A DNA stretch of 64,000 bases from Allobosea sp. (GTDB lineage: Bacteria; Pseudomonadota; Alphaproteobacteria; Rhizobiales; Beijerinckiaceae). The notes below the pieces were generated by a model. The model saw nothing but the letters and a program-made list of their open reading frames with translations, was not told the DNA's origin and ran no database searches. Shown here in pieces: positions 8,266-52,221 of this stretch. The DNA lies in assembly GCF_017308075.1 (NCBI RefSeq), contig NZ_JAFKFX010000023.1:434001-498000 (forward strand), read 5' to 3'. The position numbers and the translations under genes are program-made. How positions within the stretch are numbered: position 1 is the stretch's first letter; the number at the start of each line of letters is the position of its first letter.

Positions 8266-8358
8266 CGTCATGCTCGCCCTTGTGGCGAGCATCCACGTCT
8301 TGAATACCGCATGCGACAAGCGAAGGCGTGGATGGTCGGGACAAGCCCGACCATGACG
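8266..8358. repeat. Two-armed palindromic repeat, family 2, copy 1
   Basis: A 93-bp element that begins CGTCAT and ends ATGACG. The left arm folds as TGCTCGC/GCGAGCA and the right arm as ATGGTCGGG/CCCGACCAT. Inner CCACGTCTT faces an inverted CGTGG. Other copies are at 48641-48730 (same orientation) and 52025-52117 (opposite orientation). It lies between the divergent methyltransferase and SDR genes. Confidence 0.85.
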
Positions 8359-19188: not shown

Positions 19189-19292
19189 GTCATCCCGGCT
19201 GGAGCGAAGCGGAATGCCGGGATCCATCGTAAGGCGCAGCGTCCTTCGATGGGTTCCGGGTCTGCGCCGCTTCGCGGCTTGCCCGGAATGAC
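19189..19292. repeat. Hairpin element with GTCAT-CCGG ends, family 1 relative
   Basis: A 104-bp imperfect inverted repeat between two convergent genes. It begins GTCATCCCGG and ends CCGGAATGAC, with GGGATCCATCG facing CGATGGGTTCC inside. It has the same outer ends and layout as the elements at 47036 and 50140 but a diverged interior. It may also act as a bidirectional terminator. Confidence 0.75.
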
Positions 19293-45593: not shown

Positions 45594-47030
45594 ATGAGTG
45601 CCATCGCTTTTCCGGCGCCGGATGCCGATATCCTCGCTCGCCGCGAGCAGATTCTCGCCGGTCTCGCCCGGCTCGTCGCGCCCGAGGCCCTGATCACCAC
45701 CGAGGATGAGCGCCGGCCCTATGAAACCGACGCGCTGACCGCCTATCGCCGCATGCCGCTCGCCGTTGTGCTGCCCTCGACCACTCAGGAGGTTGCCGCC
45801 GTGCTGCGCTATTGCGGCGAGCAGGGCGTGCCGGTCGTGCCGCGCGGCGCCGGAACCTCGCTCGCCGGCGGCGCCATCCCGCAGGAGGACGCGGTGGTGA
45901 TCGGCGTCTCCAAGATGAACCGCATTCTCGAGATCGACTACGCCAACCGCGTCGCCAAGGTGCAGGCCGGCGTCACTAATCTCGCCGTCACCGGCGCGGT
46001 CTCGGCCGATGGCTTCTTCTACGCGCCCGACCCGTCCTCGCAGCTCGCCTGCTCGATCGGTGGCAATATCGGCATGAATTCCGGCGGGGCGCATTGCCTG
46101 AAATACGGCGTCACCACCAACAATGTGCTCGGCGTCACGTTAGTGATGCTGGACGGCAGTATCGTCGAAATCGGCGGCGCCCATCTCGATGCGCCGGGGC
46201 TCGACCTGCTCGGCCTGATCATCGGCTCCGAGGGGCAGCTCGGCATCGTCACCGAGGCGACGGTGCGCATCCTGCGCTCGGCCGAGGGCGCCCGCCCGGT
46301 GCTCTTCGGCTTCCCGAGCAGCGAGGAGGCGGGCGCGGCGGTTGCCGCCATCATCGGCGCCGGCATCATCCCGGTCGCGATGGAATTCATGGACAAGCCG
46401 GCGATCGAGATCTGCGAGGCCTTCGCCAAGGCCGGCTATCCGATGGATGTCGAGGCGCTGCTGATCATCGAGGTCGAGGGCTCGGAGGCCGAGATGGACG
46501 CCCAGCTCGCCCGTATCGTCGCCATCGCCAGGGAGCACGGCGTCAAGACGGTCAAGGAGAGCAAGTCGGCGATGGAGACGGCGGCGATCTGGAAGGGCCG
46601 CAAATCGGCCTTCGGCGCCACCGGGCGGATCGCCGACTATATCTGCATGGACGGCACCATCCCGACTGGGCAATTGCCCTTCGTGTTGCGCCGCATGGAC
46701 GAGATCATCAAGGGTTACGGCCTGCGCGTCGCCAACGTCTTCCATGCCGGCGACGGCAATCTCCACCCGCTGATCCTCTACAACTGCAACGACCCGGTCG
46801 AGGCGCAGAAGGCCGAGGATGCCGGCAACGACATCCTCAAGCTCTGCGTCGAGGTCGGCGGCTGCCTGACCGGCGAGCATGGCGTCGGCATCGAGAAGCG
46901 CGACCTGATGACCGTCCAGTTCAACGAGGTGGACCTGCATCAGCAGCAGCGGGTAAGGGCGGTGTTCGACCCGCGCTGGCTGCTCAACCCGGCCAAGGTT
47001 TTTCCGCTCGAAGGTCGGATCGCCGCGTGA
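45594..47030 (+). CDS. glcD: Glycolate oxidase, FAD-linked subunit GlcD
   Basis: A 478-residue flavoprotein that oxidises glycolate to glyoxylate in complex with GlcE and GlcF at the inner membrane. The FAD-binding domain has VPRGAGTSLAGGAIPQ near residue 83 and SIGGNIGMNSGGAHCLKYGVTTNNVLGV near 155. The C-terminal domain has NVFHAGDGNLHPLILYN and GCLTGEHGVGIEKRDL, the conserved His/Glu pocket. It is the first gene of glcDEF. The next glc gene is displaced by the inserted GIY-YIG element. Confidence 0.95.
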   Translation: MSAIAFPAPDADILARREQILAGLARLVAPEALITTEDERRPYETDALTAYRRMPLAVVLPSTTQEVAAVLRYCGEQGVPVVPRGAGTSLAGGAIPQEDAVVIGVSKMNRILEIDYANRVAKVQAGVTNLAVTGAVSADGFFYAPDPSSQLACSIGGNIGMNSGGAHCLKYGVTTNNVLGVTLVMLDGSIVEIGGAHLDAPGLDLLGLIIGSEGQLGIVTEATVRILRSAEGARPVLFGFPSSEEAGAAVAAIIGAGIIPVAMEFMDKPAIEICEAFAKAGYPMDVEALLIIEVEGSEAEMDAQLARIVAIAREHGVKTVKESKSAMETAAIWKGRKSAFGATGRIADYICMDGTIPTGQLPFVLRRMDEIIKGYGLRVANVFHAGDGNLHPLILYNCNDPVEAQKAEDAGNDILKLCVEVGGCLTGEHGVGIEKRDLMTVQFNEVDLHQQQRVRAVFDPRWLLNPAKVFPLEGRIAA

Positions 47031-47035
47031 GCTTT

Positions 47036-47088
47036 GTCATTCCGGGGCTCGCATAGCGAGAACCCGGAACCCACGACCGGGTGAGCGG
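47036..47088. repeat. Left arm of the GIY-YIG element
   Basis: A 53-bp hairpin arm: GTCATTCCGGGG, a small stem CTCGC/GCGAG, then ACCCGGAACCCACGACCGGG. GGGTGAG near the inner end can serve as the ribosome site of the nuclease gene, whose ATG follows immediately at 47089. Confidence 0.8.
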
Positions 47089-47373
47089 ATGGCGTATTTC
47101 GTCTACCTCATGGCTAGCAAACGAAGCGGTACGCTCTACCTGGGCATCACCAACGATCTGGCGAGACGTGCCTATGAGCACAAATCGAAACGGAACATCG
47201 GATTCACGAGCCGCTACGGGGTCGATGGGCTGGTCTGGTACGAGCAGTTCGAGGATGTCAGGGATGCGATCGACCGGGAGAAGGTCCTGAAGAAATGGCG
47301 CAGAGCCTGGAAGGTCAAGCTCATCGAAGACATGAATCCGGAATGGAAGGATTTCTATGAAGGGCTGTCCTGA
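47089..47373 (+). CDS. Small GIY-YIG nuclease (UPF0213/YhbQ-like)
   Basis: A 94-residue single-domain GIY-YIG nuclease. The two motif halves are FVYLMAS (Tyr6) and TLYLGITN (Tyr17, Gly19). The family's catalytic Arg corresponds to Arg26/27 in LARRAYEHK and the metal-binding Glu to Glu64 in DREKVLKKW. The tail KKWRRAWKVKLIE is basic. It has no extra DNA-binding domain, unlike UvrC or homing enzymes. It lies in-strand with glcD and glcE but its ATG begins exactly at the inner edge of a terminal repeat, so it belongs to the repeat element, not to glycolate metabolism. The active site appears intact. Confidence 0.93.
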   Translation: MAYFVYLMASKRSGTLYLGITNDLARRAYEHKSKRNIGFTSRYGVDGLVWYEQFEDVRDAIDREKVLKKWRRAWKVKLIEDMNPEWKDFYEGLS

Positions 47374-47381
47374 CCGACGAT

Positions 47382-47430
47382 ACCCAGTCGTGGGTTCCGG
47401 GTGCTTCGCGAAGCGAAGCCCCGGAATGAC
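47382..47430. repeat. Right arm of the GIY-YIG element
   Basis: A 49-bp inverted counterpart of the left arm: ACCCAGTCGTGGGTTCCGGG, a stem CTTCGC/GCGAAG, then GCCCCGGAATGAC. It begins 8 bp after the nuclease stop codon. Confidence 0.8.
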
Positions 47431-47445
47431 AGCGGTGGGCGCGTG

Positions 47446-48630
47446 ATGCTCCACACTCCCACCACCGAGGCACAGGCCTGCGCCGTCGTCGCCTCGATCG
47501 TCGAGGCGCGCATCCCACTCGCCATCCGCGGTGGCGGCACGCGCTCCGGCCTGGGGCGGCCGGACAACGCCGTCAGCACGCTTTCCAGCGCCGGGCTCTC
47601 CGGCATCACCCTCTATGAACCCGCCGAAATGGTGATCGGGGCCAAATCCGGCACGCCGCTGAAGCTGATCGAGCAGACTCTGGCAGAGCGCGGCCAGATG
47701 CTGCCTTTCGAGCCGATGGACCATCGCGCCTTGCTGGGCAGCGAGGGAGAGCCGACGATCGGCGCGATCGCGGCCGGCAACATCTCCGGCTCGCGCCGGA
47801 TCAATGCCGGCGCCGCTCGTGACTCGCTGATCGGCATCAGGCTGATCAATGGCCGCGGCGAGCTGGTGAAGTCCGGTGGGCGGGTGATGAAGAACGTCAC
47901 CGGTCTCGATCTGGTGAAGCTCGTCGCCGGCAGCTTCGGCACGCTCGGTTTCCTGACCGAGGTGACTTTCCGCGTCCTGCCGCGGCCGGAGCGCGTCGTC
48001 ACGCTGATCTGGGAGGGCCTTTCCGACGAGGCGGCGGTTGCGCTGCTCTCCGCGGCGCTCGGCTCGCCCTTCGAGCCGATGGCCGCGGCGCATCTGCCGG
48101 CCGGGATCGGCGCCGAGGATGCGCGCACCCTGATCAGGCTGGAGAATTTCTCCGCCTCGATCGGCTATCGCGCCGCCGAGCTCGCGCGCCTGCTCAAGTC
48201 CCATGGCCGGCCCGAGCTGATCGAAGGGCGCGGCTCGGACGCGCTCTGGCGCGAGGTCCGCGACGCCGCTTTCTTCGCTGGCAGCGACGAGGCCGTCTGG
48301 CGGCTGTCACTGGCTCCGAGCAATGGCCCAAGGGCGACCGCCGCCATCGCCCGCGCCATTCCACAGGCGCGCTGGTTCTACGATTGGGGCGGCGGGTTGG
48401 TCTGGCTTGCGGTTCCGGCGGCGGGCGATGCCGGCGCCGCCGCGATCCGCGCCGCGACGAAGCCGCTCGGCGGCCATGCCACGCTGGTGCGGGCGCCCGA
48501 TGCGGTGCGCGCCGTCGTGCCGGTCTTCGAACCGCTCGCCGAACCGCTGATGCGGGTGACGGCGGGCATCAAGAAGAGCTTCGATCCGGAGGGCGTGTTC
48601 GAGCCCGGCCGGATGTATGCGGGGATTTGA
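47446..48630 (+). CDS. glcE: Glycolate oxidase, FAD-binding subunit GlcE
   Basis: A 394-residue partner of GlcD with a second PCMH-type FAD domain. IRGGGTRSGLGRP near residue 25 and GAIAAGNISGSRRINAGAARDSLIG near 105 are GlcE hallmarks. The C-terminal domain is shorter than in GlcD and ends KKSFDPEGVFEPGRMYAGI. The start is either the ATG at 47446 or an overlapping GTG three bases earlier. It begins only 15 bp after the end of the GIY-YIG element, so its original leader sequence was replaced or disturbed. Confidence 0.94.
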   Translation: MLHTPTTEAQACAVVASIVEARIPLAIRGGGTRSGLGRPDNAVSTLSSAGLSGITLYEPAEMVIGAKSGTPLKLIEQTLAERGQMLPFEPMDHRALLGSEGEPTIGAIAAGNISGSRRINAGAARDSLIGIRLINGRGELVKSGGRVMKNVTGLDLVKLVAGSFGTLGFLTEVTFRVLPRPERVVTLIWEGLSDEAAVALLSAALGSPFEPMAAAHLPAGIGAEDARTLIRLENFSASIGYRAAELARLLKSHGRPELIEGRGSDALWREVRDAAFFAGSDEAVWRLSLAPSNGPRATAAIARAIPQARWFYDWGGGLVWLAVPAAGDAGAAAIRAATKPLGGHATLVRAPDAVRAVVPVFEPLAEPLMRVTAGIKKSFDPEGVFEPGRMYAGI

Positions 48631-48640
48631 CCGTCGTTTC

Positions 48641-48730
48641 CGTCATGCTCGGCCTTGTGCCGAGCATCCACGTCTTGCGGCGCGGATCGAAGGAAAGACG
48701 TGGATGGTCGGGACAGGCTCGACCATGACG
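48641..48730. repeat. Two-armed palindromic repeat, family 2, copy 2
   Basis: A 90-bp element between glcE and glcF, ends CGTCATGCTCG and CGACCATGACG. The GCTCG arm comes first, as in copy 1. It would form hairpins in the glc transcript. Confidence 0.85.
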
Positions 48731-50139: not shown

Positions 50140-50270
50140 GTCATTCCGGAGCCTGCCGCAGGCAGGAATCCGGAACCCACGACCGGGTGAGACGTTTCGA
50201 GCCCGGCTTGACGAAAGGTGTGCCCAATCGTGGGTTCCGGGTTCGCTGCTTTGCTGCGCCCCGGAATGAC
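50140..50270. mobile_element. Nuclease-free copy of the GIY-YIG element (REPIN-like)
   Basis: A 131-bp inverted pair with ends GTCATTCCGG and CCGGAATGAC. The inner parts ACCCACGACCGGGTGAG and CAATCGTGGGTTCCGGGT match the arms at 47036-47088 and 47382-47430. A spacer of about 30 bp replaces the nuclease gene. It lies between glcF and hisS. Confidence 0.75.
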
Positions 50271-52006: not shown

Positions 52007-52024
52007 CCTGAGAGCGCGCCATTT

Positions 52025-52117
52025 CGTCATGGTCGGGCTTGTCCCGACCATCCACGTCTTCCTTGATCGAGGACGGTATTCAGGACGTGGATGCTCGCCA
52101 CAAGGGCGAGCATGACG
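52025..52117. repeat. Two-armed palindromic repeat, family 2, copy 3 (opposite orientation)
   Basis: A 93-bp element between hisS and hisZ. Here the GGTCGGG arm is first and the GCTCGCC arm last, so it is copy 1 in reverse complement with changes mostly confined to the centre. Confidence 0.85.
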
Positions 52118-52221
52118 GAGACGGATAGCAGGCGAAGCGATTCCCGCTAACCCAATTCCCTAAAAACCGTCGAAAATCCGGTTCGTCCCTGCTAGGACGG
52201 CGCCGCAACAGGACCAATGCC

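Follow-up and report, generated by a model that had tools for sequence, protein, structure and literature searches.

What does a gene for a single-domain GIY-YIG nuclease do between two inverted hairpins at the junction of glcD and glcE? Examination of this locus in a 64,000-nucleotide stretch of an Allobosea sp. genome (the window; Table 1) reveals an ORF framed by two arms that match each other in inverted orientation over 15 nucleotides (47035-47049 against 47417-47431, 100%) and again over 24 nucleotides (47059-47082 against 47382-47405, 92%). The arms open with GTCATTCCGG, and the folding of both beats that of all 200 shuffled versions (z -3.67 and -4.87). The inverted-match search and the folding bear out the first-pass annotation as to the coordinates, the inverted arm ends, the hairpin nature of each arm and the start of the right arm 8 nucleotides past the nuclease stop. 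Its statement that the ATG follows the left arm with no gap holds if that arm is drawn up to the start codon, but the inverted match itself stops 6 nucleotides before this point, at 47082. NCBIfam matches of the flanking genes to GlcD, GlcE and GlcF (GlcD under the curated cut-off and GlcE narrowly under its own) agree with its view that the unit separates glcD from glcE. The GGGTGAG supplied by the arm is a plausible ribosome site of the nuclease gene. A 6-bp direct repeat, GCGTGA, stands on both sides of the unit; it may be a target-site duplication, but the relatives inspected share only its NTGA part, which intact overlapping genes alone would require.

Table 1. The nuclease unit, its neighbours and REP doublets in the window
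Feature	Position	Strand	Evidence
Left arm: GTC-tagged hairpin 47036-47070, then CCCACGACCGGGTGAGCGG to the ATG	47036..47088	+	R1 model 19.1 bits, E 0.013
Single-domain GIY-YIG nuclease gene, 94 aa (P0001)	47089..47373	+	PF01541 E 1.9e-16
Right arm, inverted; hairpin 47394-47430	47382..47431	-	R1 model 19.1 bits
GCGTGA, left member of direct repeat, glcD end	47025..47030	+	read from sequence
GCGTGA, right member of direct repeat, glcE start	47441..47446	+	read from sequence
glcD, upstream neighbour	45594..47030	+	NCBIfam match
glcE, downstream neighbour	47446..48630	+	NCBIfam match
REPIN-A, gene-free doublet of the window nuclease's repeat type, glcF-hisS junction	50140..50270		repeat pattern
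REPIN, other family (CATCCAC tail), glcE-glcF junction	48642..48729		R1 model
REPIN, CATCCACGTC type, hisS-hisZ junction (another GIY-YIG unit there in 9 relatives)	52026..52116		R1 model
REPIN, CATCCAC type	8267..8357		R1 model
REPIN, GATCCAT / GGAACCCAT type	19189..19292		R1 model

The Pfam GIY-YIG match is the only domain of the encoded protein. An alignment of 79 homologues showed that Y6, Y17, G19, R27, H31 and N83 are invariant and that E64 is conserved in at least 90%; the Y, Y, R and E residues, whose catalytic roles we take to be those established for the GIY-YIG superfamily, are thus kept, and by domain and residues the predicted protein belongs to that superfamily. The nearest solved structures are the UPF0213 proteins 1zg2 (E 1.2e-8) and 1ywl (E 3.6e-6), the closest single-domain relatives of this kind; we know of no REP association for UPF0213 genes. 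Searches with the nuclease gave no match in NCBIfam or PHROGs, no family among the PADLOC defence models at E 0.001 and nothing in phages, and on the empty phage and PADLOC searches a phage or defence origin of the unit was dropped.

The arms recur well beyond the locus. Allowing one mismatch, the window has 10 copies of GTCATTCCGGG, a count that takes in both arms, where 1.6 are expected and none of 100 shuffles reaches this number. The pattern GTCATTCCGGG-N(14-26)-CCCGGAA has 44 matches on both strands of the window's genome (self-complementary copies being counted once per strand) and none in the reversed control. Many of these copies form head-to-head doublets, and one of the window type recurs 3 kb downstream of the gene. 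Doublets that have these arms but contain no gene (REPINs) are dispersed, as the likeness to REPINs drawn in the first-pass annotation implied; REPIN-A, the doublet of this type, measures 133 bp, is sharply bounded and recurs at many places of the genus among the matches listed. By eye, what the doublets of the window type have in common with the arms of the gene extends beyond the stem into CCCACGACYGGG, which indicates that the nuclease gene fills the spacer position of a doublet.

The window's genome encodes five intact single-domain GIY-YIG relatives and one broken copy. Inspection by eye revealed GTC-tagged palindromes on both sides of all five intact copies, with the type varying from copy to copy: the window gene has GGAACCCACGAC, two others have CGACCATCCACGTC, the fourth has GCAATCC and the fifth a CCATC type. 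The broken sixth copy (G000:C15:298823-299081) has no clear flanking repeats. Conversely, one REP subtype of this genome, with the tail CCCATGAA (loci L016, L017, L018 and L034), was seen with no nuclease partner. An Rfam search of the repeats gave no match above threshold; a sub-threshold match of a microRNA model to the REPIN at 50165-50245 was put down to chance arising from the palindrome.

As judged from their make-up, the flanking repeats are CGTC-tagged REPs or variants thereof, and no new repeat class. This assignment is based on the GTC tag, the AT start, the 8-9-bp stem, the loop of 4-5 nucleotides and the CCA tail, which fit four described families, and which are shared with the Neisseria dRS3 and Rickettsia RPE-4/RPE-6 elements; like those CGTC REPs, the repeats form head-to-head doublets and are mostly alphaproteobacterial. 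Di Nocera et al. 2013 report CGTC REPs from all alphaproteobacterial orders and count dRS3 and the RPE elements as members of these REPs (PMC3733652). In 33 flanking repeats with differing 8-nucleotide stems, the C and A of the tail are invariant and its middle C is present in at least 90%; these are the 34 repeats picked for tag, length and perfect stem less one with a TT start, so that the tail played no part in the selection, and their 100% stem pairing and low slid controls are a product of the perfect-stem selection and carry no weight as evidence. The window's own arms depart from the described form in their TGTC tag, broken first stem pair and longer loop (scores in Table 1), and the description of CGTC REPs in Di Nocera et al. 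2013, in its relevant passage, admits TGTC and other loops (PMC3733652).

Relatives of the nuclease in other genomes show the same arrangement. The best 80 of at least 569 confirmed relatives were picked on protein similarity alone, and the sample therefore leans to close relatives; 77 were usable, three lying near contig ends, and they are mostly from alphaproteobacteria, with other phyla and many metagenome bins also represented, the nearest named relatives being from Bosea. Using a rule that requires GTC[A/T]T and an 8-nucleotide stem with at most one mismatch within 200 bp of the gene, we found palindromes on both sides of 51 of the 77 relatives versus 6 of 600 other genes of the same loci, and on some side of 66 versus 61, the control genes all being of at least 150 residues and hence no control for small genes as such. 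The background of the rule is 34 of 1226 in random windows and 12 of 1540 in shuffled flanks. Furthermore, the two sides match: at 38 of 49 two-sided loci the best stem upstream is the same as the best stem downstream, and at 7 the two are one base apart, with a difference sum of 24 versus a least permuted value of 97 (0 of 5000 permutations as good), and without the five Bosea loci they are identical in 34 of 44. At 25 of 48 two-sided loci the repeats nearest to the gene face outward (REP > gene < REP), at 12 they face inward and at 11 both face the same way. A coincidence, whereby small intergenic genes come to lie at REP-rich intergenic spots, could draw on the mostly intergenic location of REPs and on the one-sided palindromes of the control genes, but is hardly credible in the face of the two-sided counts and of stems that match across the gene, and chance pairing was dropped on these grounds. 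The nuclease family thus adjoins matching GTC-tagged palindromes in several bacterial phyla, and the pairing, which holds far outside the genus, is more general than the first-pass annotation could see.

Other samples vary in the strength of this pairing. Among the best matches listed, 28 further alphaproteobacterial loci (30 less the window's own and one at a contig end) have palindromes on both sides in 13 cases and on some side in 23. In the genus the figures are 49 and 56 of 82 loci, one place being counted twice, and by eye many of the remaining 26 have other GTC-tagged palindromes outside the rule, several of them upstream only. Records from a plasmid collection give the pairing its weakest support: within 250 bp, 15 of the 34 records yielded five genes with palindromes on both sides, two with one and eight with none. 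The two-sided cases are from Azospirillum lipoferum (sufB/sufC), Neisseria gonorrhoeae (dRS3-like), Rhizobium CIAT894, Shinella HZN7 and Neorhizobium. In the N. gonorrhoeae record (L273) the relative lies amid dRS3-like repeats at a place where the annotation, with 12 features in the whole record, shows no gene. On plasmid p1 of Planktothrix agardhii (L272) a relative devoid of REPs by the rule is flanked by genes for a type IIL restriction enzyme and a DISARM helicase.

Within the genus, clades of the nuclease carry differing repeat signatures. When mapped on a protein tree of 54 genes (those of the 82 genus loci with repeats by the rule and a protein of at least 85 residues, one doubly fetched place having been removed), five signatures, whose rules were drawn up after the repeats had been seen, require only 4 changes, the minimum, against a mean of 32.8 for shuffled labels, none of 200 shuffles being as low. 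Signatures A and B come from one genomic site each and C from one site bar one locus, so that inherited flanks could account for these three; D (12 genes, two of them in the window's genome) and F (11 genes) occur at several places.

The number of repeats also correlates with the presence of the nuclease. In 385 genomes of the class, the strength of the best nuclease match is bimodal (E either about 1e-15 or above, or at most 1e-30). Three or more REPs, counted with a model (R1) that was itself built from repeats beside the same nuclease family, are present in 101 of 122 genomes with the family versus 50 of 263 without (Fisher 1.3e-33, kinship ignored); the latter comprise 18 of 59 genomes with weaker matches only and 32 of 204 with none. 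The top values of these counts per genome stand for at least about 19, and 15 of the 122 genomes with the family have no REP by R1. In 61 genus genomes, REP-A was found in 41 and REP-B in 28, with reversed controls of 0 in all. Dispersed copies of REP-A (the total minus the two own arms) have a median of 10 in the 15 genomes with nuclease A, with zero in one, and of 3 in the 46 without, with zero in 20 (one-sided p 0.013); for REP-B the medians are 24.5 in the 8 genomes with nuclease B (zero in one) and 0 in the 53 without (zero in 32; one-sided p 3e-4). On the question raised in the first-pass annotation, whether copy number tracks the nuclease, the class counts show a strong correlation and the genus medians a moderate one, but REPs persist without it, with 26 of the 46 genomes lacking nuclease A keeping REP-A, and tree-paired sign tests of copy number in the genus lean the same way and are not significant.

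Alternatively, the CGTC REPs could be moved in trans by RAYTs or another transposase, with the GIY-YIG gene as a passenger. Tyrosine transposases are encoded in some CGTC-positive species according to the relevant passage of the 2013 survey (PMC3733652), and the Y1 domain is weakly associated with REPs in the class (39 of 72 genomes versus 112 of 313, p 0.005). However, the window's genome combines 44 matches of a single REP pattern with no match to PF01797 (Y1_Tnp, the HUH/Y1 enzyme), the transposase family searched for. When genomes are sorted by enzyme, kinship being ignored, three or more REPs are found in 74 of 91 with GIY-YIG only, 27 of 31 with both, 12 of 41 with Y1/RAYT only and 38 of 222 with neither, and RAYTs are reported, in the same part of the survey, to lack CGTC REP flanks (PMC3733652). 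We accordingly consider this alternative very improbable, and RAYT in trans was dropped as the main driver on account of the Y1-free genome and the low REP rate of Y1-only genomes.

The glcD-glcE junction offers a view of how the unit itself behaves. It could be read in 60 of the 61 genus genomes: 15 contain the type-A unit, one of them (G006) with a stop inside; 8 contain a different GIY-YIG unit, type B, with arms CCCAGAACC or similar and the right arm missing in G029; 2 have other inserts; and 35 are empty. The unit is thus present or absent between close relatives, and the empty sites in sister genomes that the first-pass annotation had looked to were indeed found. Alignment shows that glcD overlaps glcE directly at 29 of the 35 empty sites. 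The sister of the window's genome (support 100/99) has an empty junction, and the most distant clade of 7 has six empty sites and one 83-nucleotide insert. On a tree of the flanks of these 60 genomes the four states need 21 changes (for shuffled labels the mean is 22.4, and 53 of 200 shuffles need no more than 21), with at least 10 changes for A and at least 7 for B on well-supported branches.

In a search of the 61 genomes, the type-A nuclease (76-100% identity) was found at glcD-glcE only. A freely hopping element, in which gene and arms would move together, is therefore not supported, and with it the suggestion in the first-pass annotation that the pair could be autonomous; a normal insertion sequence was dropped for the same reason. 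Over 78 pairs from 13 of the 15 type-A genomes, mean identity is 83.5% for the insert, 90.0% for glcD and 83.8% for glcE; the only inserts clearly more alike than both flanks are in pairs among close relatives of the window's genome, and type-B inserts (15 pairs from 6 of the 8 genomes) are more diverged than their flanks. Given that the divergence of type-A inserts is on a par with that of glcE, repeated loss combined with recombination is a better fit than a large number of recent gains, and recent horizontal spread of the type-A gene was dropped as a general account.

GIY-YIG is a classical homing-endonuclease fold, and the precise filled and empty alleles at glcD-glcE are a feature of homing endonucleases. 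A free-standing homing endonuclease might have invaded a doublet, with the REPs as its targets or as safe landing sites, and spread by cutting empty alleles; this would fit the fold, the position of the gene in the middle of a doublet, the restriction of type A to one site and the junction states, which are about as scattered on the flank tree as shuffled labels. Yet the window protein consists of a single domain, no intron was seen here, and the empty alleles have no REP doublet, most of them showing the direct overlap of glcD and glcE, so that the gene did not merely enter a doublet that still stands elsewhere. Homing also leaves the dispersed REPINs with the same arms unexplained, and we regard it as unlikely.

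A role in host repair is in our view quite unlikely as well. Here a structure-specific nuclease akin to UvrC or Slx1 would process REP cruciforms, the REPs being its sites or a means of controlling its expression, with no part for the enzyme in their spread. A REP hairpin lies right before the start codon at many loci, and the type-A genes appear to be under purifying selection, with a median dN/dS of 0.10 across 14 genes, a rough value as the median dS is as high as 1.2. An excerpt on Caulobacter crescentus describes three small COG2827 nuclease genes, of which one has an SOS box (PMC1839093), and this species is reported as CGTC-positive in the species data of Di Nocera et al. 2013 (PMC3733652). 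Nevertheless, a core repair gene does not typically show such patchy presence and repeated loss, or several paralogues in one genome whose repeats differ.

The closest parallels are with the REPtron, in which RAYT (TnpA-REP) enzymes are associated with GTAG REPs. As in that system, the nuclease gene is flanked by REPs, a genome may contain several enzymes each with its own REP family, doublets are dispersed as REPINs, and orphan REPs are left after gene loss. The consulted sections of accounts of REPtrons give one enzyme type per REP family, and orphan REPs once the gene is lost, as features of these systems (PMC6006769; PMC8266576). Flanking of the gene by its own REPs was observed in the window's genome, in the sample of 77 and in the genus, and an own REP family per enzyme type on the genus tree, under post hoc rules and with signatures A and B at one site each. 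The single-domain GIY-YIG nuclease stands where the RAYT stands in a REPtron, as the first-pass annotation had it, and does so with paired repeats well beyond the genus. However, the enzyme is GIY-YIG and not HUH/Y1, and the repeats belong to the CGTC and not the GTAG superfamily; the enzymes being unrelated, the system lies outside the REPtron family despite the close parallels. A further difference is that the covalent strand-transfer chemistry is not expected of a GIY-YIG enzyme.

In light of the above observations, we propose a REPtron-like system in which CGTC-type REPs are partnered by a GIY-YIG nuclease in place of an HUH/Y1 enzyme, with the unit as its gene-bearing member, a reading to which we assign a probability of about two in three. 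The nuclease would recognize its cognate repeat as a hairpin or cruciform, by way of the stem, the GTC tag and the CCA-like tail, and would nick at the foot of this structure, following which repair or replication could copy the doublet to new intergenic sites. The gene itself would mostly stay at one site, subject to precise deletion or recombination swap, much like RAYT genes; the GCGTGA direct repeat would permit precise deletion through slippage between the inverted arms. As its relatives adjoin such scattered repeats in many bacteria, the enzyme is a strong candidate for the agent that spreads CGTC REPs.

We also lean, with more reserve, towards the wider proposal that the entire CGTC REP superfamily has its dedicated enzymes in single-domain GIY-YIG nucleases, in Alphaproteobacteria and as far afield as Neisseria, Bacteroidota and Patescibacteria. 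These would constitute a second, independently evolved REP-mobilizing system, in which each clade co-evolves with its own hairpin and doublets spread when hairpins or cruciforms are cut, with no covalent transfer of a strand. The CGTC REPs themselves were already known. The passages of Di Nocera et al. 2013 on this point describe CGTC repeats as unlinked to transposase genes and seemingly without a dedicated transposase (PMC3733652), in contrast to the matched nuclease family found here. A search of open-access literature in PMC (with subscription papers and preprints lying outside it, and best matches only for several queries) found no link between GIY-YIG enzymes and REPs and no later candidate enzyme for the CGTC REPs. 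The excerpts of RepRanger 2025 and of a Bradyrhizobium REP paper name no such enzyme, and the string 'palindrom' is absent from the available portion of a 2006 GIY-YIG phylogenomics paper. A matched nuclease family makes the origin of these REPs, described as enzyme-less in 2013, directly testable. If the GIY-YIG system holds true, REP systems would have at least two origins, based on unrelated enzymes, and the large natural set of nuclease-hairpin pairs would be one from which rules of recognition could be read.

Other junctions in the genus are variable too, and the intergenic sequence around other REPINs diverges strongly between relatives. The REPIN-A at glcF-hisS is missing in all 5 comparable relatives, two of which carry another REP family there; 20 were fetched, 13 with incomplete junctions, and of the 7 read G006 and G036 have about 1 kb of other DNA. 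The hisS-hisZ junction (52007-52221 in the window) is a second variable site, read in 13 of 16 fetched relatives, 9 of the 16 having been chosen because a nuclease had already been seen nearby: nine of the 13 have another nuclease clade with a CGAGCAT-CTC repeat, G008 has a REPIN like that of the window, and G050, G012 and G032 have neither. At another locus (L032 ~1479-1651; G000:C15 near 154332-154460), compared across 25 genomes, REPIN-A is present in 10, other families in 14 and none in one, and this spot looks as if one REPIN family had replaced another.
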